This document shows positions 48,440 to 58,981 of a stretch of 64,000 bases of DNA, piece after piece. This DNA is from Streptomyces sp. G44 (GTDB lineage: Bacteria; Actinomycetota; Actinomycetes; Streptomycetales; Streptomycetaceae). A program made the position numbers and the translations under genes. How positions within the stretch are numbered: the stretch's first letter is position 1; every line of letters starts with the position of its first letter. The stretch is taken from NCBI RefSeq assembly GCF_016905445.1, contig NZ_JAFEXF010000008.1, positions 1 through 64,000 of the forward strand, given 5' to 3'. The notes below the pieces were generated by a model, which searched no databases, had not been told where the DNA came from, and saw only the letters and a list, made by a program, of their open reading frames with translations.

Positions 48440-49390
48440 TCACGCGCGCCTCCTGACGGTATGGCGCGAGACGTTCCGCGCGTCGAGGCCGGACAGTCCG
48501 CGCACGGCGACGTACGCCTTCTCGTGTCCCGGCAGGGAGACGCGGCCGCGCAGGACGGCCTCCGGTTCCCGCTCGATGCGGTCGAGGAGGCGGCGGTAGA
48601 TGCCGGCCATGGCGGCGACGCAGGCACCGCTGCGCCGGTCCAGCATGGGAAGCAGCCGGTAGCCCTCGGCGAACAGGGCGCGGGCGCGGCGGACCTCGAA
48701 GTGGACGAGGCCCGCGAAGTCGGAGCCGGCGGGCGGCTCGGTGCCCGAGAACCCGGCGGAGCAGCCGAATTTCGCGAGGTCCTCGGCGGGCAGGTAGGTC
48801 CGCCCGCCCTCGGCGTCCTCGCGAACGTCCCGGAGGATGTTGGTGAGTTGGAGCGCGAGGCCGAGCGTGTCGGCGTACTCCGGCGCGCGCTCGGCGTGGA
48901 GCGCCCCCCGCTCCGTGCCGAACACGCCGAGGGAGAGCCGCCCGATCGCCCCGGCGACACAGCGGCAGTAGGCCTTCAGGTCGTCCCAGGTCTCGTACGT
49001 CCGGCCGCGTACGTCCATCAGGACGCCGTCGATGAGTTCGTCGAGGCCGCCCATGGGGATGGGGAAGTGCGCGGCGGCGTGCGCGAGGGCGACCGCCACC
49101 GGGTCGGTGTCGTCCTCGGCCACGTGGCCCTCGCGGATCCTGGCCAGAAGGCCGCGCGTGTCGTCAAGCCGCTCCGCCTTGACCCGTGGCGCGAGCGCGC
49201 CGTCGCCGATGTCGTCGACGCGGCGGGAGAGGGCGTACAGCGCGGACATGGCGCGCCGCTTGGGCGCCGGCAGCAGTCTGATGCCGTACGCGAAGTTCCG
49301 TGCCTGCTGCCCGGTGACGGTCTCGCAGTAGCTGTACGCGGCGAGAACCGGTGCCGACACGGGCTGATCCTGCTCCACGGCCCGGCTCAC
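48440..49390 (-). CDS. hpnD: Presqualene diphosphate synthase HpnD
   Basis: A 316-residue trans-isoprenyl head-to-head synthase condensing two farnesyl diphosphates to presqualene diphosphate. The Asp-rich motifs are ALSRRVDDIGDG and LTNILRDVREDAEGG with RTYLPAEDLAKFG. The start GTG overlaps the hpnC stop (GTGA), so HpnC and HpnD are coupled. It lacks the C-terminal membrane helix of eukaryotic squalene synthase, as usual for HpnD. Confidence 0.94.
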   Translation of the reverse strand: MSRAVEQDQPVSAPVLAAYSYCETVTGQQARNFAYGIRLLPAPKRRAMSALYALSRRVDDIGDGALAPRVKAERLDDTRGLLARIREGHVAEDDTDPVAVALAHAAAHFPIPMGGLDELIDGVLMDVRGRTYETWDDLKAYCRCVAGAIGRLSLGVFGTERGALHAERAPEYADTLGLALQLTNILRDVREDAEGGRTYLPAEDLAKFGCSAGFSGTEPPAGSDFAGLVHFEVRRARALFAEGYRLLPMLDRRSGACVAAMAGIYRRLLDRIEREPEAVLRGRVSLPGHEKAYVAVRGLSGLDARNVSRHTVRRRA

Positions 49391-50286
49391 CCCTCTCCTC
49401 GCAGAACCGCCCCGGCCTCGCGCAGCAGGCGGGGCTTGGTGGGCTTGGGCGGACCGGGGAGGACGTCGTGTCCGGCGGCGGCGATCGCCTGGACCGCCGC
49501 CCTCCCCCCGGCCACGAAACCGGCCAGCAGCAGCTTGAGCCTGCCGTGGACGCTACCCACCAGGGGGGTGCCTTCATTCAGGAGGCCGCGGGCGCGTTCC
49601 GTCTCGTATGCGACCAGTGCGCGCACCGATGCGCCTGCTGTGGGCGCGGCCAGGTCGGCCTCGCTGACGTGGAAGAGCGACATGTCCTCAAGGGGCAGAT
49701 AGACGCGGTCGCGCCGCAGGTCCTCGGCGACGTCCTGGATGTGCTCGACGATCTGGAGGCCGGTGCAGACGGCGTCCGAGCGGCGGAGGCGTTCGGGGGT
49801 CGCGGTGCCGGTGATGGCGAGGACCAGGCGGCCGATGGGGTTGGCCGAGAGGGCGCAGTACGCCACGAGGTCGTCGTACGTCTCGTAGCGGGAGACGTGC
49901 TGGTCCTGGCGGTTGGCGGCGATCAGGGCGAGGAAGGGCGCGGGGGTGAGGACACCGCGCTCGGCGGCCGGCGCCAGCGCCCGTACCAGCGGGTGAGCTG
50001 CCGCACCGTCCACGAAGAGCGTGCCGATGTCGGCCTCGACGGCGTCGAGCAGCCGCAGCGGGTCGCGGGCGTCGGCGGGGTCGACACCGAGGCAGCGGGC
50101 GTGCCCGGCTCCGGGTGCGAGGTCGCTGTCGCCGATGTCGTCGATGAGCCGCACGACGCCGTAGACGGCCATGAGCTCCTCGCGCCAGGCCCGGGGCAGG
50201 AAGAAGGGGGCCACGGGGAAGTTCTCGTGCGCGGCCTTGTCGAGGACGGCGGACGCATCGCGGAGGGGGAGATCATCCGTAGCCAT
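49387..50286 (-). CDS. hpnC: Hydroxysqualene synthase HpnC
   Basis: A 299-residue squalene/phytoene synthase-family enzyme converting presqualene diphosphate to hydroxysqualene. Motifs: RLIDDIGDSDLAPG and EHIQDVAEDLRRDRVYLPLE, with ENFPVAPFFLPRA near the N-terminus, typical of HpnC. ATG 50286 is the first gene of the hopanoid transcript, with GGGAGATG about 11 bases upstream. The whole downstream operon is likely to be read from a promoter in the 385-base gap above. Confidence 0.93.
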   Translation of the reverse strand: MATDDLPLRDASAVLDKAAHENFPVAPFFLPRAWREELMAVYGVVRLIDDIGDSDLAPGAGHARCLGVDPADARDPLRLLDAVEADIGTLFVDGAAAHPLVRALAPAAERGVLTPAPFLALIAANRQDQHVSRYETYDDLVAYCALSANPIGRLVLAITGTATPERLRRSDAVCTGLQIVEHIQDVAEDLRRDRVYLPLEDMSLFHVSEADLAAPTAGASVRALVAYETERARGLLNEGTPLVGSVHGRLKLLLAGFVAGGRAAVQAIAAAGHDVLPGPPKPTKPRLLREAGAVLRGEG

Positions 50287-50671
50287 TGCCGTCACATCTC
50301 CCGTTCTACACTGCCGACCCAAAACATCCTATTTCGGACACGCCGCCCGGCCCTGGCCGGGGCGGGCCGTGGCCCTGGCCGGGGCGCTGCGCCATTTCGC
50401 CCCACTTGCCGCGAATCAGCACCGGTACAGCTTACGTTGTACAACCCCGTACGACTCGTCGGGGTGTTCGGCACATCACAACAACACACCGAAGGGCGTC
50501 AAACCGAAGGGCGTCAACCTTCCCTGTACGCCGACGAGTTGAGGGTCCGGTGGGGCGCGGCGGGGCCGAAGACACGCAAGGGCCCCGCCGGGAAGATCCC
50601 TGCGGGGCCCTGCCGCCGAACGAGTCCGTCCGCGATGGCGCAAACGGGCTACTCGCCCGTGAACGTCCGGC
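50287..50671. promoter_or_regulatory. Hopanoid promoter region and convergent-side spacer
   Basis: This 385-base gap lies before hpnC and after the Wzt gene, which reads leftward and ends at 50672. It holds a 10-bp palindrome, GTTGTACAAC (50436-50445), and a directly repeated GGCCCTGGCCGGGGCG unit (about 50350 and 50369). The GTCAAACCGAAGGGC/GTCAACC stretch is another short direct repeat. The hopanoid promoter should be here, but I cannot name its boxes. The strong hairpin at 50579-50611 is listed separately. Confidence 0.45.
50579..50611. terminator. Terminator downstream of the ABC ATPase gene
   Basis: AGGGCCCCGC (50579-50588) pairs perfectly with GCGGGGCCCT (50602-50611) across a 13-base loop. 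It is 60 bases beyond the stop of the Wzt-like gene and separates the export cluster from the hopanoid operon. Confidence 0.78.
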
Positions 50672-51478
50672 CTACTTGCCCGTGAACTTCTCGTACTCCT
50701 TGATGACCTCGTCGGTCGGGCCGTCCATACGCAGCTCGCCGCGCTCCAGCCAGAGCACGCGGTCACAGGTGTCACGGATCGACTTGTTGTTGTGGCTGAC
50801 GAGGAAGACCGTGCCGGCCTCCTTGCGCAGCTCCCGGATGCGGGCCTCGGAGCGCTTCTGGAACTTGCGGTCGCCGGTGGCGAGCGCCTCGTCGATCATC
50901 AGGACGTCGTGGTCCTTGGCCGCGGCGATGGAGAACCGCAGGCGGGCCGCCATGCCGGAGGAGTACGTCCGCATCGGCAGGGTGATGAAGTCGCCCTTCT
51001 CGTTGATGCCGGAGAAGTCGACGATCTCCTGGTAGCGCTCCCTGATCTGCTCGCGGGACATGCCCATCGCGAGCCCGCCGAGGATGACGTTGCGCTCACC
51101 CGTCAGGTCGTTCATCAGGGCCGCGTTCACGCCGAGCAGCGAGGGCTGGCCGTCGGTGTAGACCTTGCCCTGCTCGGCGGGGAGCAGGCCCGCGATGGCG
51201 CGCAGCAGGGTCGACTTGCCCGAGCCGTTCGAACCGATCAGGCCGATCGCCTCACCCCGGTAGGCGGTGAAGCTGACGCCGCGCACCGCGTGCACCTTGC
51301 GTACACCGCGCTCCTCGCCGCGCCGGAGGATGCGGCTCAGCGCGGAGGTGGCGCTGCCCTTGCCCGTCTTCGCGCCGTTGACGCGGTAGACGATGTGCAG
51401 CTCGTCGGCGATGACGGTGGGGATGTGCGCCCGGGACGCTTCGGGAGCCTTGTCGGGGGTCGTCTTGTCGTCAGCCAC
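50672..51478 (-). CDS. ABC-2 polysaccharide exporter ATPase (Wzt/TagH-like)
   Basis: A 268-residue ATPase of the ABCB-type capsule/teichoic-acid exporter group. Walker A is IGLIGSNGSGKSTLLRAIAG, the signature is YSSGMAARLRFSIA, and Walker B is DVLMIDEALATGDRKFQK, followed by the His-loop LVSHNNKSIRDTCDRVLWLE. The N-terminal part has the LSRILRRGEERGVRKVHAVR segment typical of TagH/Wzt. GTG 51478 overlaps the permease stop by eight bases. It should power export of a glycan or lipid-linked polymer with the next gene. Confidence 0.95.
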   Translation of the reverse strand: MADDKTTPDKAPEASRAHIPTVIADELHIVYRVNGAKTGKGSATSALSRILRRGEERGVRKVHAVRGVSFTAYRGEAIGLIGSNGSGKSTLLRAIAGLLPAEQGKVYTDGQPSLLGVNAALMNDLTGERNVILGGLAMGMSREQIRERYQEIVDFSGINEKGDFITLPMRTYSSGMAARLRFSIAAAKDHDVLMIDEALATGDRKFQKRSEARIRELRKEAGTVFLVSHNNKSIRDTCDRVLWLERGELRMDGPTDEVIKEYEKFTGK

Positions 51479-52415
51479 GGCCGTACCGCTCCTCAGCCTT
51501 CCAGAAGTACACGAAGCCGCCGACCGCGAGCAGCACGGCCCAGCCCGCCGCGATGGCCCAGGCCCACTGTCCCATCGGCAGGTACTTCTCGCCGTAACCG
51601 TCGATCAGCGCGAACCGCATCAGGTCCATGTAGATGGCGGCCGGGTTCCACTGGAGCACGTCCGCGATCCAGGCCGGCTTGCCCTCCAGCATGACCGGGA
51701 TGGAGAACATCACGCCGGACGCGTACATCCACGTACGCATCACGAACGGCATCAGCTGCGCGAGGTCGGGGGTCTTGCTGCCCAGCCTGGCCATGATCAT
51801 CGCGAGGCCGGTGTTGAAGAAGAACTGGAGCACCAGGACCGGGACGATCAGGAGCCACGACAGCTTCGGGTAGCTGCCGAAGCCGATCGTGATGACGAAC
51901 AGCACGATCATCGAGAAGAGCAGCTGCTGGAGCTGCTGGAGCGAGAACGAGACCGGCAGCGAGGCGCGCGGGAAGTGCAGCGCGCGCACCAGGCCGAGGT
52001 TGCCCGAGATCGACCGGACGCCCGCCATCACCGAGCTCTGCGTGAAGGTGAAGACGAAGACGCCCGTGACGAGGAACGGGATGTAGACCTCGCGCTCGAA
52101 GCCCCGGTCGGCCTCCAGGATCAGGCCGAAGATCAGGAAGTAGACGAGCGCGTTCAGAAGCGGCGTCGCCACCTGCCACAGCTGGCCCAGCTTGGCCTGG
52201 CTGTACTGGGCGGTGAGCTTGGCCTGGGAGAAGGCGACGATGAAGTGGCGCCGTCCCCAGAGCTGGCGGACGTACTCGAAAAGTCCGGGCCGTGCGCCGC
52301 TGACGGTCAGACCGTACTTGGCGGCGAGTTCGGCGCGGGAGAGCCCGTCATCGGGCGGCGGTGTCGACGGGGATGCTGTCACCGCGACTCCGCCGTCATG
52401 CGTTGTCTCACTCAC
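51471..52415 (-). CDS. ABC-2 polysaccharide exporter permease (Wzm/TagG-like)
   Basis: A 314-residue permease with about six membrane helices after an N-terminal cytoplasmic region: GQLWQVATPLLNALVYFLIF, IPFLVTGVFVFTFTQS, FSMIVLFVITIGFGSY, LLIVPVLVLQFFF, FVMRTWMYASGVMFSI and AWAIAAGWAVLLAVGGFVYF. The LWGRRHFIVAFSQAKLTAQY block marks TagG/Wzm permeases. Start GTG 52415. It should export the product made by the upstream cluster. The gap to the glycosyltransferase is 95 bases. Confidence 0.94.
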   Translation of the reverse strand: MSETTHDGGVAVTASPSTPPPDDGLSRAELAAKYGLTVSGARPGLFEYVRQLWGRRHFIVAFSQAKLTAQYSQAKLGQLWQVATPLLNALVYFLIFGLILEADRGFEREVYIPFLVTGVFVFTFTQSSVMAGVRSISGNLGLVRALHFPRASLPVSFSLQQLQQLLFSMIVLFVITIGFGSYPKLSWLLIVPVLVLQFFFNTGLAMIMARLGSKTPDLAQLMPFVMRTWMYASGVMFSIPVMLEGKPAWIADVLQWNPAAIYMDLMRFALIDGYGEKYLPMGQWAWAIAAGWAVLLAVGGFVYFWKAEERYGRG

Positions 52416-52510
52416 GAGTGGAAACTTTCGTCTTCAGAAGCGCAGCCGGTCGGGCGTAGGCCTGGGCCAGGGACCGGGGTATGGCCCAGATGGTCTCAGA
52501 TCCGAGCCTG

Positions 52511-53404
52511 TCAGATGACAGGAGGTCGGCCCAGTCGCGTCAGCCGCCACACCGTACGCCACCTCATGGGCGTACGCGGGCCGCACGGCGTCGTCCAGCC
52601 CTCCTTGAAGCCGCCGAACCAGGCCTTCAGGGCCGGCCCCGAGGGGCGTCGGGCGAGGGTGAGCAGCATCCAGACGCCCAGGTAGACCGGGACGAGCGGC
52701 GCGGGGAGGTTGCGCCGGGCCAGCCAGACGCGGTTGCGGGCCACCATGCGGTGGTAGACCGCGTGCCGGGAGGGGGCGGTCGTCGGGTGCAGGAGCACCA
52801 TGTCGGACCGGTAGTCGATCATCCAGCCCGCGTCGAGGGCGCGCCAGGCGAGGTCGGTCTCCTCGTGGGCGTAGAAGAACTCGCCGGGCAGCGGGCCGAC
52901 CTCGGCGACGACCTTCGTGCGGACGGCGTTGGCGCCGCCGAGGAACGTCGTCACGCGCGAGGAGCGCATCGGGTCGGAGGCCCGCAGCCGCGGCACGTGG
53001 CGCCGCTGGGTCTCGCCGGTGTCCGGGTCGGCGATGCGGAAGCTGACGATGCCGAGCCGCGGGTCGGCGGCGAAGGCCTCGCGGCACAGCTGGGCCGTGT
53101 CCGTGTTCGCCAGCAGGCCGTCGTCGTCCAGGAAGAGCAGGATGTCGACGTCGGTGCCGCCGGGGCCGAACGCCTCGATGCCGACGTTGCGGCCGCCGGG
53201 GATGCCGAGGTTCTCGGGCAGCTCGACGGTGCGTACGCCTTCGGGCACCTCGGGGACGGGGGCGCCGTTGCCGACCACGACCACCTCGACCGGGTCGCCG
53301 TCCTGCTTGGCGACCGAGTCGAGGAGGGCGCGCAGCTCCTGGGGCCGGTTGCCCATCGTGATGATGACGGCGCCGACCTTCAGCTCATGTGCCGGGGTGC
53401 TCAC
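52511..53404 (-). CDS. Family 2 glycosyltransferase
   Basis: A 297-residue GT-A glycosyltransferase. Pattern: VGAVIITMGNRPQELRALLD, VVVVGNGAPVPEVPEGVR, LGIPGGRNVGIEAFGPG, and LLFLDDDGLLANTD with the DxD-like metal site, then FFYAHEETDLAWRALDAGW. It would add a sugar to the exported lipid or polymer. GTG 53404 overlaps the CDP-alcohol phosphotransferase stop by four bases (GTGA). The sugar donor is unknown; galE nearby offers UDP-galactose. Confidence 0.92.
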   Translation of the reverse strand: MSTPAHELKVGAVIITMGNRPQELRALLDSVAKQDGDPVEVVVVGNGAPVPEVPEGVRTVELPENLGIPGGRNVGIEAFGPGGTDVDILLFLDDDGLLANTDTAQLCREAFAADPRLGIVSFRIADPDTGETQRRHVPRLRASDPMRSSRVTTFLGGANAVRTKVVAEVGPLPGEFFYAHEETDLAWRALDAGWMIDYRSDMVLLHPTTAPSRHAVYHRMVARNRVWLARRNLPAPLVPVYLGVWMLLTLARRPSGPALKAWFGGFKEGWTTPCGPRTPMRWRTVWRLTRLGRPPVI

Positions 53405-54180
53405 TTCAACCTGCTCGATACGAGGATGGACACGAGGTGGAGCAGGGTCTGGAGCATCGCGATGCCCGCGAGGACCGCGACACCGACGCGCGAGAAGAAC
53501 AGGTCGCCCCGGGCCTGGTCGACGATGGCGAGGACCAGGATCAGCAGCGACGCCTCGACGCCGAGGATCAGCCGGTGGAACTTCAGCGCGGCGGCGGCCC
53601 TGCGGGCCAGGGCCATGCCGGAGGAGCGCGGCTCGGACGCCGACTCCTTGACCGGTTCCTTGCCCGTCTGGTGGCGGGCGACGCCGACCAGGTCGGTCTC
53701 GGCCTTGATCAGGATCGCGCCGAGGGCGGCCAGGGTGCCGAGGAAGGCCCACAGCCAGTCGATGCGTCCGCTGCCCCACAGGTCGGCGGCGCGCAGGCCG
53801 AAGCCGACCAGGACCGCGGCGTCGCACAGGTAGGCGGCGACGCGGTCGAGGTAGACGCCCGCCATCGAGTACTGCTTCTTCCAGCGCGCGATCTCGCCGT
53901 CGACGCAGTCGAGCAGCAGGTAGAGCTGGACGGCGAGCACGCCGAGCACGGCGCCCGTGATGCCGGGCACCAGCAGGGCCGGGGCGGCGAGGGCGCCGGC
54001 GACGGTCATCACGTAGGTCAGCTGGTTGGGCGTGACCCGCGTGTTCACCAGGTGCCGGTCGATGCGCAGGGAGACCTCGCGCATGTAGAGCCGGCCGGCC
54101 CAGTGTTCGCCGCTGCGCCGGTCCTTCACCCCCGGCGGGTGGACGACCGGGCGGAGCTCAGCTACCGATGGCTTGTGCAT
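53401..54180 (-). CDS. CDP-alcohol phosphatidyltransferase-like protein with altered motif
   Basis: A 259-residue integral membrane protein with the CDP-alcohol phosphotransferase fold (about six helices). The motif reads D91-CV-D94-G95-EI-A98-R99, then G108 and D112, but the position of the fourth Asp (116) is Ala (DRVAAYLC). That Asp is the proposed catalytic base of the family, so it may be inactive, use another base, or be a non-canonical subtype. It overlaps the dehydrogenase gene by 23 bases. It should sit in the membrane and act on a CDP-linked polyol made next door. Confidence 0.88.
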   Translation of the reverse strand: MHKPSVAELRPVVHPPGVKDRRSGEHWAGRLYMREVSLRIDRHLVNTRVTPNQLTYVMTVAGALAAPALLVPGITGAVLGVLAVQLYLLLDCVDGEIARWKKQYSMAGVYLDRVAAYLCDAAVLVGFGLRAADLWGSGRIDWLWAFLGTLAALGAILIKAETDLVGVARHQTGKEPVKESASEPRSSGMALARRAAAALKFHRLILGVEASLLILVLAIVDQARGDLFFSRVGVAVLAGIAMLQTLLHLVSILVSSRLK

Positions 54181-55222
54181 AGTCGGCGTATGCGTCCCTG
54201 ATCTGGTCGGTGGACAGGTCGAGGTGTTCCAGGATCGTGTAGCGGCCCGGGCGGGTCTGCGGAGCGAACTCCACGACCTTCACGAACTCGTCCACGGTGA
54301 AGCCGATCTCCTCCGGCAGCACGGGCAGGCCGTGGCGGCGCAGCACCTGGGCCATGTACGCGGACTCCTCGCGGGCACCGCGCAGGTGCATCGCGAAGGC
54401 CGCGCCGAGGCCGCACTGCTCGCCGTGGCTGGCGGCGCGCTTGGGGTAGAGGAGGTCGAAGGCGTGGTTGATCTCGTGGCAGGCGCCGGACGCCGGGCGG
54501 GAGTCGCCCGACACGGACATCGCGATGCCGGTGAGGACCAGGCCTTCGGCGAGGACCTGGAGGAAACCGTCGTCGCCCACCCCGCCGGGGTGGCGCAGGA
54601 CGGCCTCGCCCGCCTGGCGGGCCATAGCGGCCGCCAGGCCGTCTATGTCCTCGCCGCGTTCGCGGGCGGCCAGCTCCCAGTCCCGGATCGCCGAGATGTT
54701 GGAGAGGGCGTCGCCGATGCCGGAGCGGACGAAGCGGACGGGCGCCTCACGGATCACGTCGAGGTCGATGACGACCGCGATGGGGTTGGGCACGCCGTAC
54801 GAGCCGCGGCCCGCGTCGTTGTCGAGGGTCGCGACGGGCGAGCAGAGGCCGTCGTGCGACAGGTTCGTCGCGACGGCGACCAGCGGCAGGCCCACGCGCG
54901 CCGCGGCGAACTTGGCGCAGTCGATGATCTTGCCGCCGCCGAGGCCGACGACCGCGTCGTAGCGGCCCTTCTTCATGGCGTCGGCGAGCTTGATGGCGTC
55001 ATCGAGGGTGCCGCCGCCGACCTCGAACCACTCGGCGCCGGGCAGCGACGGCATGAGGCGGTCGCGCAGGACCGCACCGGAGCCACCGCTGATGGCGATG
55101 GCGAGCTTGCCGGTCGACGAGCAGATCCGCTGGTCGGCGAGGACACCGGCCAGGTCGTTGAGCGCCCCCGGCCGGATGTCGACGACGACCGGCGAGGGGA
55201 TGAGCCTCGTCAGTACTGGCAC
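54158..55222 (-). CDS. Iron-containing alcohol dehydrogenase, glycerol-1-phosphate dehydrogenase-like
   Basis: A 354-residue NAD(P)-dependent dehydrogenase of the iron-containing/G1PDH (EgsA/AraM-like) group. NAD-binding loop AVVGLGGGKIIDCAKFAAAR; metal ligands in CHEINHAFDLLY and ASHGEQCGLGAAFAMH; plus VATNLSHDGLCSPVATLDND, the block shared with archaeal glycerol-1-phosphate dehydrogenase. It could reduce dihydroxyacetone phosphate to sn-glycerol 1-phosphate, rare in bacteria. Start GTG 55222 overlaps the cytidylyltransferase gene by 13 bases; no ATG fits. Confidence 0.88.
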   Translation of the reverse strand: MPVLTRLIPSPVVVDIRPGALNDLAGVLADQRICSSTGKLAIAISGGSGAVLRDRLMPSLPGAEWFEVGGGTLDDAIKLADAMKKGRYDAVVGLGGGKIIDCAKFAAARVGLPLVAVATNLSHDGLCSPVATLDNDAGRGSYGVPNPIAVVIDLDVIREAPVRFVRSGIGDALSNISAIRDWELAARERGEDIDGLAAAMARQAGEAVLRHPGGVGDDGFLQVLAEGLVLTGIAMSVSGDSRPASGACHEINHAFDLLYPKRAASHGEQCGLGAAFAMHLRGAREESAYMAQVLRRHGLPVLPEEIGFTVDEFVKVVEFAPQTRPGRYTILEHLDLSTDQIRDAYADYAQAIGS

Positions 55223-55947
55223 GCGATCTCCCGGCCCTTGGCGAGGTCGTCGTGGTTGTCGATCTCGACCCACTTGACGTCGCCGATCGGGGCCACGTCG
55301 ACCTTGAAGCCGCGGTTGACGAGCTCCTGGTAGCCGTCCTCGTAGTAGAGGTCGGGGTCGCGCTCGAAGGTGGTCTTCAGCGCGTCGGCCAGCTCCTCGG
55401 CGGCGGAGCCCTCGATGAGGGTGACGCCGATGTACTCGCCGGTGGCCTCGGAGGGGTCCATCAGCTTGGTGATGCGCTGGACGCCCTTGGCGTCGTCGAC
55501 GATGACCTTCATCTCCTCGTCGGCGAGCTGCTTCACCGTGTCGAGGGCGAGGATGATCTTCTGGCCGTTGCCGCGGGCGGCGAGCAGCGTCTTCTCGACG
55601 GAGACCGGGTGCACGGTGTCGCCGTTGGCGAGGATCACGTCGTGCTTGATGGCGTCACGGCCGCACCACAGGGAGTAGGCGTTGTTCCACTCCTCGGCCT
55701 TGTCGTTGTCGATCAGCGTCAGCTTGAGGCCGTACTTCGCCTCCAGGGCCGCCTTGCGCTCGTAGACGGCCTCCTTCTTGTAGCCGACGATGATCGCGAC
55801 CTCGGTCAGACCGATCTCGGCGAAGTTGCCGAGCGTCAGGTCGAGGATGGTCGTGTCGCCGTCGACGGGCACCAGGGCCTTGGGCAGGGTGTCCGTGTAA
55901 GGGCGAAGACGGCGTCCGGCGCCGGCCGCCAGCACGAGGCCGATCAT
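55210..55947 (-). CDS. Nucleotidyltransferase (phosphocholine cytidylyltransferase-like)
   Basis: A 245-residue sugar-phosphate/phosphocholine nucleotidyltransferase. N-terminal signature GLVLAAGAGRRLRPYTDTLP with KALVPVDGDTTILDLTL; IIVGYKKEAVYERKAA; ANGDTVHPVSVEKTLL; VKWVEIDNHDDLAKGREIAC. The family uses CTP (LicC-type) or other NTPs. In this context it should make a CDP-polyol, such as CDP-glycerol, as donor for the two CDP-alcohol phosphotransferases. Its ATG overlaps the upstream gene by four bases (ATGA). Confidence 0.9.
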   Translation of the reverse strand: MIGLVLAAGAGRRLRPYTDTLPKALVPVDGDTTILDLTLGNFAEIGLTEVAIIVGYKKEAVYERKAALEAKYGLKLTLIDNDKAEEWNNAYSLWCGRDAIKHDVILANGDTVHPVSVEKTLLAARGNGQKIILALDTVKQLADEEMKVIVDDAKGVQRITKLMDPSEATGEYIGVTLIEGSAAEELADALKTTFERDPDLYYEDGYQELVNRGFKVDVAPIGDVKWVEIDNHDDLAKGREIACQY

Positions 55948-57731
55948 GCGGGTTCTCCTTCATCGTGTACGGCGGGTGCGCCGCGCTTGTGAGCGGTCAC
56001 CCAGAAGTGGATGCTCTCGACGAGCACCACGAGTGCCACGGCCACGGCGAGTGCCGTGAGCGCGACGGTGAAATCTGTGGCGGGCAGCAGGGCCGCTGCC
56101 AGCGCGACCACGAGGACCCTGCCCTCCTGGCCGCCGATCGCGCGCACCAGCCAGGCCGGCGGCGCGCCGGTACCGCCCTTGATGCGGTACACCGTGTCGT
56201 AGTGATGGTAGGCGACCGCGGCCACCAGTCCGAAAGCCGCCGGAAGCGCTCCGTTCACGTCCGCTTTGGCCGCCAGGACCAGGATCGTGCCGTACTCGGC
56301 GGCGCGGAAGAACGGCGGGACCAGCCAGTCCAGGGGGGCCTTGAGGGGCATGACCAGGGCGAGGCCCGACAGGGCGATGTACAGCGCGGCGGCGGCCACG
56401 ACCACGGGGCCGCCGTAGGAGTTGCCCAGCGCCGTGCCGACGAGCCCGGCGCCGCCGGCGAAGGCGAGCACCGGGGCGGGCCGCAGCCAGGTCACCCGTG
56501 GCGTGAGGGCGGAGAACGCCGAGGCCAGGGGACCGTTGTCCGCGAGGTCGGCCAGCGCCGTCGCGGCGCGGTCGGTGCGGGTGGCCTTGCGGGTCAGCGA
56601 GCGCAGGACACGCCCGGCGGTGGTGTAGCAGGCCGCGAGCGCGCAGCCGATGAGCAGGACGACGAGGGTGACGCGCGGGGTGGTGACCGCGGTGAGCGCG
56701 GCGATCAGCGCCCAGCGCTCGCCGATGGGCAGCACGATCATCCGGCGTACCCACACCGTCCAGCCGACGCTGTCGAGCTTGTCGGAGAGGGCGGCGGTGG
56801 GGCTGGTGTTGGCGGTGGCGTCGTGGTTCGCCTCGTTGAAGGAGAAGTCCACGACGTGCCGGCAGGTCTGGAGCACCATCGCGCCGAGCGCCAGTGCCCA
56901 CACGTCGTCGCCACCGCGGGCCGCGCCGAGTGCGAGCCCCGCGTAGTAGGCGTACTCCTTGGCCCGGTCGAACGTGGCGTCGAGCCAGGCGCCGAGCGTC
57001 GAGTACTGCAAGGAGTAGCGGGCGAGCTGCCCGTCGGTGCAGTCCAGGACGAAGGAGAGGATCAGCAGCAGACCGGCGGCGACGAAGCCGCCGCGCGTCC
57101 CGGTCGCCGCGCAGCCCGCCGCGATCAGGGCGGTGAGCAGCGAGACGGTGGTGACCTGGTTGGGGGTCAGGCCCCGGCGGGCGCACCAGCGGGCGATGTA
57201 GCGGGAGTACGGCGAGATGCAGTACGTCGTGAAGAAGCCGTCCCGCGACTTGACCGCGGTGCGCAGGCGCACGGCCTCGTCGTCGACGGCGGCGACGGCC
57301 CGGCGTGCTTCGTCGCGGGTCTGGGGGTCGGTGGGGACGGTGGCGACGAGGGCGCCGAGTTCGGGGCGGTGCACGTCCGTCGCCGCCGACTCCATGGCGG
57401 CCGCGATGCCGTCCGGGAGCGGGGCCGCGGTCCCGGCGCCCGTCCGCAGCGCGCGGGTGAGGGCCGTGCGGGCCTCCGGCTTGGCGGTGACGGCGCCGGG
57501 TACCGCCGAGGCGGCGAAGCGGGGGTCGGTGAGCGCCAGGCGCAGTGCGTGGACGTGACCGACGAAGCGCGCGTCGACGACGGCGACGCGCTGGTCACCC
57601 GGCACGGCGGCGAGCAGCGTCTCGGCGTCCGCCGCGTCGGAGGCGACCCGCACGTCGAAGCCGAGGGACCGCAGATCGCCTTCGAGCGGCGACCCGGGGA
57701 CCGGCTGACCGGTGAGGATGGCGGTCGACAG
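55944..57731 (-). CDS. DUF5941/CDP-alcohol phosphatidyltransferase membrane protein (CTG start)
   Basis: A 595-residue membrane protein. Residues 1-190 are a soluble, degenerate nucleotidyltransferase-like part. A canonical CDP-alcohol motif follows: D230-CT-D233-G234, A237, R238, G247, D251 and D255. A DUF5941-type membrane C-terminus with several helices ends it. The reading frame begins after a TGA three codons before CTG 57731, which has AAGGAG about 9 bases upstream and matches the STAILTG start I recall from homologs; the first ATG/GTG start would lose 26 conserved residues. It is the first gene of the export cluster, about 120 bases from the PHO-box-like repeat. Confidence 0.85.
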   Translation of the reverse strand: MSTAILTGQPVPGSPLEGDLRSLGFDVRVASDAADAETLLAAVPGDQRVAVVDARFVGHVHALRLALTDPRFAASAVPGAVTAKPEARTALTRALRTGAGTAAPLPDGIAAAMESAATDVHRPELGALVATVPTDPQTRDEARRAVAAVDDEAVRLRTAVKSRDGFFTTYCISPYSRYIARWCARRGLTPNQVTTVSLLTALIAAGCAATGTRGGFVAAGLLLILSFVLDCTDGQLARYSLQYSTLGAWLDATFDRAKEYAYYAGLALGAARGGDDVWALALGAMVLQTCRHVVDFSFNEANHDATANTSPTAALSDKLDSVGWTVWVRRMIVLPIGERWALIAALTAVTTPRVTLVVLLIGCALAACYTTAGRVLRSLTRKATRTDRAATALADLADNGPLASAFSALTPRVTWLRPAPVLAFAGGAGLVGTALGNSYGGPVVVAAAALYIALSGLALVMPLKAPLDWLVPPFFRAAEYGTILVLAAKADVNGALPAAFGLVAAVAYHHYDTVYRIKGGTGAPPAWLVRAIGGQEGRVLVVALAAALLPATDFTVALTALAVAVALVVLVESIHFWVTAHKRGAPAVHDEGEPA

Positions 57732-57850
57732 ACGAACTCACTCCTTGATTCCCGGCGCGGCTCGCGCCGGGCACGTGCGTAAGGGGGGCGCCCCTGGCAC
57801 GGCGGCCGGGCGGCACGTCGGCAGAGGCTATCGGATGATGAGAAGCGGGC

Positions 57851-57872
57851 GTTCACCGCCCGTTCACGCCCC
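57851..57872. promoter_or_regulatory. PHO-box-like direct repeat
   Basis: GTTCACCGCCC (57851-57861) is followed directly by GTTCACGCCCC (57862-57872). This is two 11-base units whose first seven bases fit the Streptomyces PhoP half-site GTTCACC. It lies in the 266-base divergent gap between the CDP-alcohol cluster (start 57731) and galE (start 57998). The rest of that gap shows nothing certain. Confidence 0.6.
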
Positions 57873-57997
57873 GATAAGGGCGGCCTGCGAGGGCCTCGGC
57901 CTGCGCGATCATCATGGTGGATGGGGGCCCGCCCCTCCAAACCGCGCCCGGATCGCGCCCGGCTTGCCCCCATAGCGTTCGCTTAGGGTGGGCGTCC

Positions 57998-58981
57998 ATG
58001 ACATGGCTGATCACCGGCGGGGCCGGATACATCGGGGCACATGTGGTGCGGATCATGGCCGGCGCCGGTCAGGACGTCGTCGTCCTGGACGACATCTCCT
58101 CGGGGGTGCCGCGGCGGCTGCCCGCGGAGGTCCCGCTCGTCAGGGGTTCCTCGCTCGACGGGGAGCTGCTGCGCCGCGTCCTCGCCGAGTACGGCGTCAC
58201 GGGGGTGGTGCATCTCGCGGCCCGGAAGCAGGTCGCGGAGTCCGTGGCGCAGCCGCTGCGCTACTACCGGGAGAACGTGGGCGGCCTGGTGACGCTGCTC
58301 GGCGCGGTGGCCGAGGCGGGGGTGCGGCGGTTCGTCTTCTCCTCGTCGGCCGCGGTGTACGGCGATCCGCCGGACGTCCACCTCGTCGGTGAGGACACGC
58401 CGTGCGCTCCCGTCAGCCCGTACGGCGAGACGAAGCTGGCCGGGGAGTGGCTGGTGCGGGCGGCCGGGCGGGCGCACGGCATCGGGACGGTGTGCCTGCG
58501 CTACTTCAACGTGGCGGGCGCCGCGGCCCCCGAGCTCGCGGACACCGGGGTCTACAACGTCATCCCGATGGTCTTCGACCGCCTCTCCCGCGGCGAGCCG
58601 CCGCGGATCTTCGGCGACACCCATCCGACGCCGGACGGCACGTGCGTACGCGACTACGTCCATGTGGCCGATCTCGCGGAGGCGCATCTGGCGGCGGCCC
58701 GGCGGCTCGCGGGCGGGGCCGCGGGTGACCTGACGGTGAACATCGGCCGCGGCGAGGGTGTTTCCGTACGCGAATTGGTCGACCTCGTCGGCGAGGTGAG
58801 CGGTGACCGCCGTCCGGCGCTGGTCGAGCCGGCCCGTGCCGGTGACGCGCCGCGGGCCGTGGCCGACGCGCGGCTGGCCGCCGAGGAGCTGGGCTGGACG
58901 GCGCGGCGCGGGGTGCGCGAGATGGTCGAGTCGGCGTGGGCGGGGTGGTGCCTGCACCGTCCTCCGGCCCGCCGCGACTGA
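57998..58981 (+). CDS. galE: NAD-dependent epimerase, UDP-glucose 4-epimerase-like
   Basis: A 327-residue short-chain dehydrogenase/reductase. Rossmann motif TGGAGYIGAHVVRIMAG; VVHLAARKQVAESVAQPLRY; FSSSAAVYGDPP supplies the Ser, and VSPYGETKLAGEWLVR the Tyr and Lys of the catalytic triad; LRYFNVAGAA and GTCVRDYVHVADLAEAH follow. UDP-glucose/UDP-galactose interconversion is likely. Divergent from the DUF5941 gene, it could supply UDP-galactose to the exported glycan. Length agrees with GalE. Confidence 0.9.
   Translation: MTWLITGGAGYIGAHVVRIMAGAGQDVVVLDDISSGVPRRLPAEVPLVRGSSLDGELLRRVLAEYGVTGVVHLAARKQVAESVAQPLRYYRENVGGLVTLLGAVAEAGVRRFVFSSSAAVYGDPPDVHLVGEDTPCAPVSPYGETKLAGEWLVRAAGRAHGIGTVCLRYFNVAGAAAPELADTGVYNVIPMVFDRLSRGEPPRIFGDTHPTPDGTCVRDYVHVADLAEAHLAAARRLAGGAAGDLTVNIGRGEGVSVRELVDLVGEVSGDRRPALVEPARAGDAPRAVADARLAAEELGWTARRGVREMVESAWAGWCLHRPPARRD

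Follow-up and report, generated by a model that had tools for sequence, protein, structure and literature searches.

The Bacillus teichoic acid system (TagD/TagB/TagF/TagGH) has CDP-polyol supply, a TagGH-like exporter and a PHO box in common with an operon that we analysed in a 64,000-nucleotide stretch of Streptomyces DNA (the window). The operon differs from it in that the predicted unit is sn-glycerol-1-phosphate (G1P) and not G3P, the cytidylyltransferase has the NTP_transferase fold and is not of the TagD type, and CDP-alcohol phosphotransferases replace TagB and TagF. With archaeal EgsA and Bacillus AraM, the dehydrogenase of the operon shares family, metal ligands and motifs, but it is paired with a cytidylyltransferase instead of GGGPS and carries a Cys for a Glu. 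In IPCT-DIPPS and AF2299 from Archaeoglobus fulgidus, a nucleotidyltransferase-like N-terminal domain is fused to a CDP-alcohol phosphotransferase. This is also the case in the first enzyme of the operon, CDP-APa, whose fold they match, whereas the N-terminal domain of CDP-APa has no NTP motif, the cytidylyltransferase is encoded by a gene of its own, and an extra membrane domain, DUF5941, is present. The mycobacterial galactan exporter and GlfT1 (Rv3781-Rv3783) resemble the operon in that a GT2 is encoded together with Wzt and Wzm, although the operon proteins score far below the cut-offs for these proteins; the mycobacterial unit presumably lacks CDP-polyol genes.

G1P dehydrogenase (G1PDH) homologues in Streptomyces are already in the literature (PMC5059525, PMC6431249), and the presence of such a homologue alone is not new. 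A crtB-tagH-tagG-araM syntenic region described in 929 Streptomyces genomes is almost certainly the same locus; the passage on it gives automatic labels only and proposes no pathway, regulation or mechanism (PMC13118837). Our literature search returned no paper on DUF5941, nor any in which this cluster is assigned a product.

Organization and conservation of the operon

Seven minus-strand genes, mostly overlapping, extend from 57731 to 50672, and a promoter site and a divergent gene lie beyond them.

55944..57731, minus strand: CDP-APa, with a degenerate nucleotidyltransferase-like N-terminal domain, a CDP-alcohol phosphotransferase domain and a C-terminal DUF5941 membrane domain
55210..55947, minus strand: CTP-type nucleotidyltransferase, LicC/inositol-1-phosphate cytidylyltransferase-like; predicted G1P cytidylyltransferase
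54158..55222, minus strand: sn-glycerol-1-phosphate dehydrogenase homologue, EgsA/AraM family, Fe-ADH_2
53401..54180, minus strand: CDP-APb, with the fold of a CDP-alcohol phosphotransferase and D1-D3 intact; Ala stands at D4, where most other genera have His
52511..53404, minus strand: GT2-family glycosyltransferase; GTG start, 4 bp overlap with the CDP-APb stop
51471..52415, minus strand: ABC exporter permease, Wzm/TagG-type
50672..51478, minus strand: ABC exporter ATPase, Wzt/TagH-type, without a C-terminal carbohydrate-binding domain
57851..57872, plus strand: PHO-box-like site, PhoP-type, two 11-bp direct repeats (GTTCACCGCCC and GTTCACGCCCC) in the divergent promoter region
57998..58981, plus strand: galE, divergent, accessory

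When read from the sequence, five of the six junctions overlap: CDP-APa/cytidylyltransferase (4 bp), cytidylyltransferase/G1PDH (13 bp), G1PDH/CDP-APb (23 bp), CDP-APb/GT2 (4 bp) and Wzm/Wzt (8 bp). The 95-bp gap between GT2 and Wzm is the sole exception. CDP-APa probably starts from the CTG at 57731 (57729-57731) and not from the GTG at 57653, since the corresponding codon of the Streptomyces fungicidicus orthologue is its TTG start, and the N-terminal sequence MSTAILTGQPVPGS is conserved. The earlier note on this DNA had placed all the named genes correctly. Its single unit holds for the seven genes but not for galE, which is encoded on the opposite strand. We rejected galE as a core member because of its divergent orientation and because no galE was found at 14 of the 43 Streptomyces loci. 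The hopanoid genes hpnC and hpnD (48440-50322) adjoin the 3' end of the operon on the same strand, and the S. fungicidicus annotation has the same order, operon, hpnC, hpnD. Among the 43 loci, galE was present in at least 29 and hpnC in at least 40, counts that are minima as a few contigs stop inside the stretch examined.

Gene content, order and conservation were observed directly. A close G1PDH match was found in all 61 Streptomyces genomes, and the seven genes occurred in identical order in every one of the 43 Streptomyces loci read, which takes the operon far beyond chance. Two of these genomes (G299 and G315) harbour two G1PDH copies each. The module is also found in many other actinobacterial genera, including Nonomuraea, Microbispora, Nocardiopsis, Actinomadura, Micromonospora, Actinoplanes and Kineosporia. 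Genes in loci were predicted with a gene caller trained on the window genes. Among these relatives, the cytidylyltransferase adjoined G1PDH in 78 of 80 loci, the remaining gene set being variable, and in 50 of those 78 the matches of the two genes shared an identical 9-base overlap. DUF5941 is encoded in several genera by a separate gene overlapping or following CDP-APa, and the Streptomyces CDP-APa thus looks like a fusion. In the phylum sample, DUF5941 was detected in 13 of 297 genomes, all 13 also with a G1PDH match; most of these are Streptomyces and hence not independent.

The CDP-glycerol enzymes and the CDP-alcohol phosphotransferases

Concerning the dehydrogenase, the G1PDH model gave 231.6 bits, compared with 92.5 bits for GldA (glycerol dehydrogenase) and 21.4 bits for AroB. 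The score lies below the curated G1PDH equivalog cut-off of 413, and the enzyme is classed as a G1PDH homologue, not as an equivalog. Its best solved relatives were 3ce9, deposited as a glycerol dehydrogenase, and the G1PDHs 4rgq and 4rfl. The G1PDH metal ligands Asp170, His248 and His264 (numbering of L052, the first alignment row) aligned with those of the archaeal enzyme, the Asp being nearly invariant and both His residues invariant in the G1PDH alignment. The motifs SRPxSG, HGE and RPxRYTIL are retained in the dehydrogenase group of the operon, whereas the Glu preceding the metal His in archaeal G1PDH is replaced by Cys (Cys or Asp). Scores and metal ligands together confirm the homology to G1PDH claimed in the earlier note. 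The cytidylyltransferase matched PF00483 with 54.6 bits and has the GxGxRLxPxTxxxPK motif, as GAGRRLRPYTDTLPK. Its nearest solved relative was the CTP enzyme LicC (1jyk), followed by 4jd0, which we take to be an inositol-1-phosphate cytidylyltransferase, and PntC (6pd1) was also matched. Taking into account that the cytidylyltransferase flanks G1PDH in nearly all of the loci above, we predict CDP-sn-1-glycerol as the product of the pair.

The motif states observed in the two CDP-alcohol phosphotransferases differ. CDP-APa has the complete signature D1xxD2GxxAR(8)GxxxD3xxxD4, followed by an Arg, a basic residue found after D4 in PIP synthases with a phosphate-bearing acceptor. Its AlphaFold model (pLDDT 88.6) matched the fold of AF2299 and IPCT-DIPPS and, more weakly, the nucleotidyltransferases RmlA and PntC. 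When the profile of its N-terminal domain was compared with that of the cytidylyltransferase, only a weak match resulted (E = 0.006, probability 6%), so that the assignment of this domain relies on the fold search. The comparison between DUF5941 and the CDP-alcohol phosphotransferase domain was not significant, and we therefore do not claim that DUF5941 originated by duplication of the latter.

In CDP-APb, D1-D3 are kept, but none of 50 loci has an Asp at the position of D4, which is His in 35 of them and Ala in the other 15; of the 43 Streptomyces loci, 40 have Ala there and 3 have His. D4 is kept in five other CDP-alcohol phosphotransferases of the same genome. The catalytic base is presumed to be D4, and PIP synthase is inactive when this residue is mutated (PMC6506517, PMC9385802); the residue missing in CDP-APb is also essential in PgsA1. 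As the fold is retained despite this loss, CDP-APb is treated as a divergent homologue, which may use another base or an acceptor needing none, carry out other chemistry, or be non-catalytic or inactive. The earlier note was correct in counting two CDP-alcohol phosphotransferases, and the loss of D4 in the second had gone unnoticed. A catalytic Asp lost across a whole subfamily of these enzymes poses a mechanistic question.

Exporter, teichoic acid genes and promoter

The glycosyltransferase and the Wzm/Wzt-type export genes of the earlier note are present, and the exporter is a TagGH-like paralogue of a TagF-linked exporter. Wzm and Wzt are 70% and 80% identical, respectively, to a second exporter pair, encoded on contig C23 of this genome between a galE paralogue on one side and, after the pair, two Glyphos_transf (TagF-type) proteins, one of them fused to a GT2. 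The genome of the operon resembles teichoic acid biosynthesis and export systems in having a TagF-linked paralogous exporter. Among solved structures and family models, the ATPase came closest to TagH/TarH, although its score with the TagH equivalog (183 bits) is below the cut-off of 320. No TagF-type polymerase is encoded among the seven genes of the operon; TagF-type genes lie elsewhere in the genome. Module loci in Streptosporangiales carry IspD-SDR (CDP-ribitol-type) proteins and Glyphos_transf genes. In one genome (G205) CDP-APa adjoins a GT2-Glyphos_transf (GT2-TagF) gene and Wzm/Wzt, and a GT2-Glyphos_transf gene is also found in a Frankiales module locus. The Wzm/Wzt genes do not adjoin the module in the majority of Streptosporangiales loci. 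The module is intact in the four Streptomyces without a Glyphos_transf match, one of these genomes being only 82% complete, and is thus not simply an accessory of TagF.

The exact PHO-box core occurs twice in the 8.37 Mb genome, in the operon promoter and upstream of pstS. In 24 of the 43 Streptomyces loci, sites scoring at least 12/14 precede the operon, against a background of 14 in 1.44 million positions, and nearly all were located approximately 190-250 bases before the match start of the first gene; the other 19 loci had weaker sites or none. A second PHO-box-like match inside galE (58720-58741, minus strand), with one core mismatch, is probably due to chance. From S. coelicolor gene numbering, we take SCO6753 to belong to this cluster. 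SCO6753 is listed as altered in a phoP mutant and as having a PHO box (PMC4173021). PhoP, acting at the putative PHO box, probably links transcription of the operon to the phosphate supply, and the site is compatible with activation or repression. Phosphate control suits a phosphate-rich polymer and is also compatible with other roles.

Predicted pathway, alternatives and related clusters

In the best-supported account, which we consider slightly more likely than not, the operon encodes an envelope module of the teichoic acid type that draws on CDP-sn-1-glycerol and yields an exported polymer; it would probably represent a conserved variant of teichoic-acid-type biosynthesis with G1P as the unit. 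Judging from its family, the dehydrogenase would convert dihydroxyacetone phosphate to G1P, from which the cytidylyltransferase, by family and gene pairing, would form CDP-sn-1-glycerol. Both membrane CDP-alcohol phosphotransferases may then transfer glycerol-1-phosphate to a lipid-linked acceptor. CDP-APa would use the canonical metal mechanism and CDP-APb a variant without the usual catalytic base. Homology suggests that GT2 would attach a sugar and that the TagGH-like ABC exporter would carry the lipid-linked product across the membrane. This product may be a teichoic or lipoteichoic acid primer or anchor, or a separate glycerol-phosphate glycan. The substrates, acceptors and product, and the direction of regulation, are inferred. 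A teichoic-acid-type product is argued for by the observed paralogy of the exporter to the TagF-linked pair, the TagF/CDP-ribitol neighbourhoods and the conservation of the PHO box. The same evidence makes the exported polyol-phosphate glycan the better supported half of what the earlier note had suggested. On the other hand, this reading is weakened by the lack of a polymerase in the operon, by the separation of Wzm/Wzt from the module in most Streptosporangiales, and by the basic residue after D4 in CDP-APa, with which a soluble phosphodiester would agree. The use of G1P is weakened by the score under the curated cut-off and by the Cys in place of the archaeal Glu, the scheme with two transferases by the absence of D4 from CDP-APb, and the argument from phosphate control by the 19 loci with weaker or no sites and by a PHO box that does not give the direction of regulation.

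Four alternatives were weighed. The dehydrogenase might act on a different keto-sugar phosphate, with the same architecture leading to another CDP-polyol unit. The sub-threshold score, the Cys/Asp beside the metal His and the fact that Streptosporangiales carry CDP-ribitol-type genes close to the module would fit, but G1PDHs are the best matches by far and the three metal ligands and three motifs are kept, and we regard this as unlikely. A soluble or membrane phosphodiester as in Archaeoglobus, of the glycerophosphoinositol or di-inositol phosphate type, would result if CDP-APa joined CDP-glycerol to a phosphorylated polyol. This would agree with its fold, nearest to AF2299 and IPCT-DIPPS, and with its PIP synthase-like Arg. 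The dedicated TagGH-like exporter and GT2, the teichoic acid gene neighbourhoods elsewhere, and an operon without a phosphatase or inositol-phosphate synthase make such a product distinctly unlikely.

Incorporation of G1P into an isoprenoid or acyl glycerolipid, subsequently glycosylated and exported, would give an archaeal-type ether or G1P-based membrane lipid. The G1PDH homologue itself, the isoprenoid genes (idi, hpn) adjacent in Streptomyces, the report of all three archaeal genes in some Streptomyces (PMC6431249) and the acceptance of both glycerol-phosphate enantiomers by PlsY/PlsC (PMC13400652) are in line with this. However, a search for GGGPS (PF01884), which is required for archaeal ether lipids, gave no match in 61 Streptomyces genomes, the source genome included, while 7 of 14 controls were matched. 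Ether-lipid core synthesis would also need no cytidylyltransferase paired with G1PDH. The archaeal ether-lipid variant is accordingly disfavoured, and we judge a lipid of this kind very unlikely. Even less probable is a hopanoid-associated pathway for a lipid head group. The locus is shared with hpnC/D in Streptomyces, hpnC being present in nearly all loci, but outside Streptomycetaceae the module lies away from hopanoid genes, and a hopanoid link was rejected as adjacency confined to that family.

Returning to the teichoic-acid-type module, we propose, only tentatively, that it constitutes a dedicated actinobacterial CDP-sn-1-glycerol pathway providing the G1P units of lipoteichoic or related envelope polymers via membrane CDP-alcohol phosphotransferases, one of which has a changed catalytic site. 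Lipoteichoic acid would be a plausible product, since it is made by Streptomyces, in which no clear LtaS orthologue exists (PMC3196553), and since LtaS transfers glycerol phosphate as Gro1P (PMC8262930). If true, the proposal would explain lipoteichoic acid synthesis in actinobacteria lacking LtaS. CDP-1-glycerol has been called likely absent from bacteria (PMC8262930), and this operon, universal in Streptomyces, is a concrete candidate for both bacterial CDP-1-glycerol and LtaS-less lipoteichoic acid. The operon also argues that lipids of the archaeal type need not be assumed wherever a Streptomyces has a G1PDH, a point of relevance to arguments on the lipid divide.

Sulfotransferase-family genes occur in module loci of other actinobacteria (L052, 3253-6477; L141, 14417-15403), which suggests a sulfated product in these organisms. 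A different actinobacterial cluster (L058-L064), mostly from one family (f9), contains a G1PDH relative of approximately 40% together with a nucleotidyltransferase, a CDP-alcohol phosphotransferase with D4 kept, a GT2, phosphodiesterases, Bac_transf and DUF4012. A plasmid of Nitratidesulfovibrio vulgaris encodes a lone G1PDH relative in the vicinity of its type III secretion genes (L003, 9983-11032).
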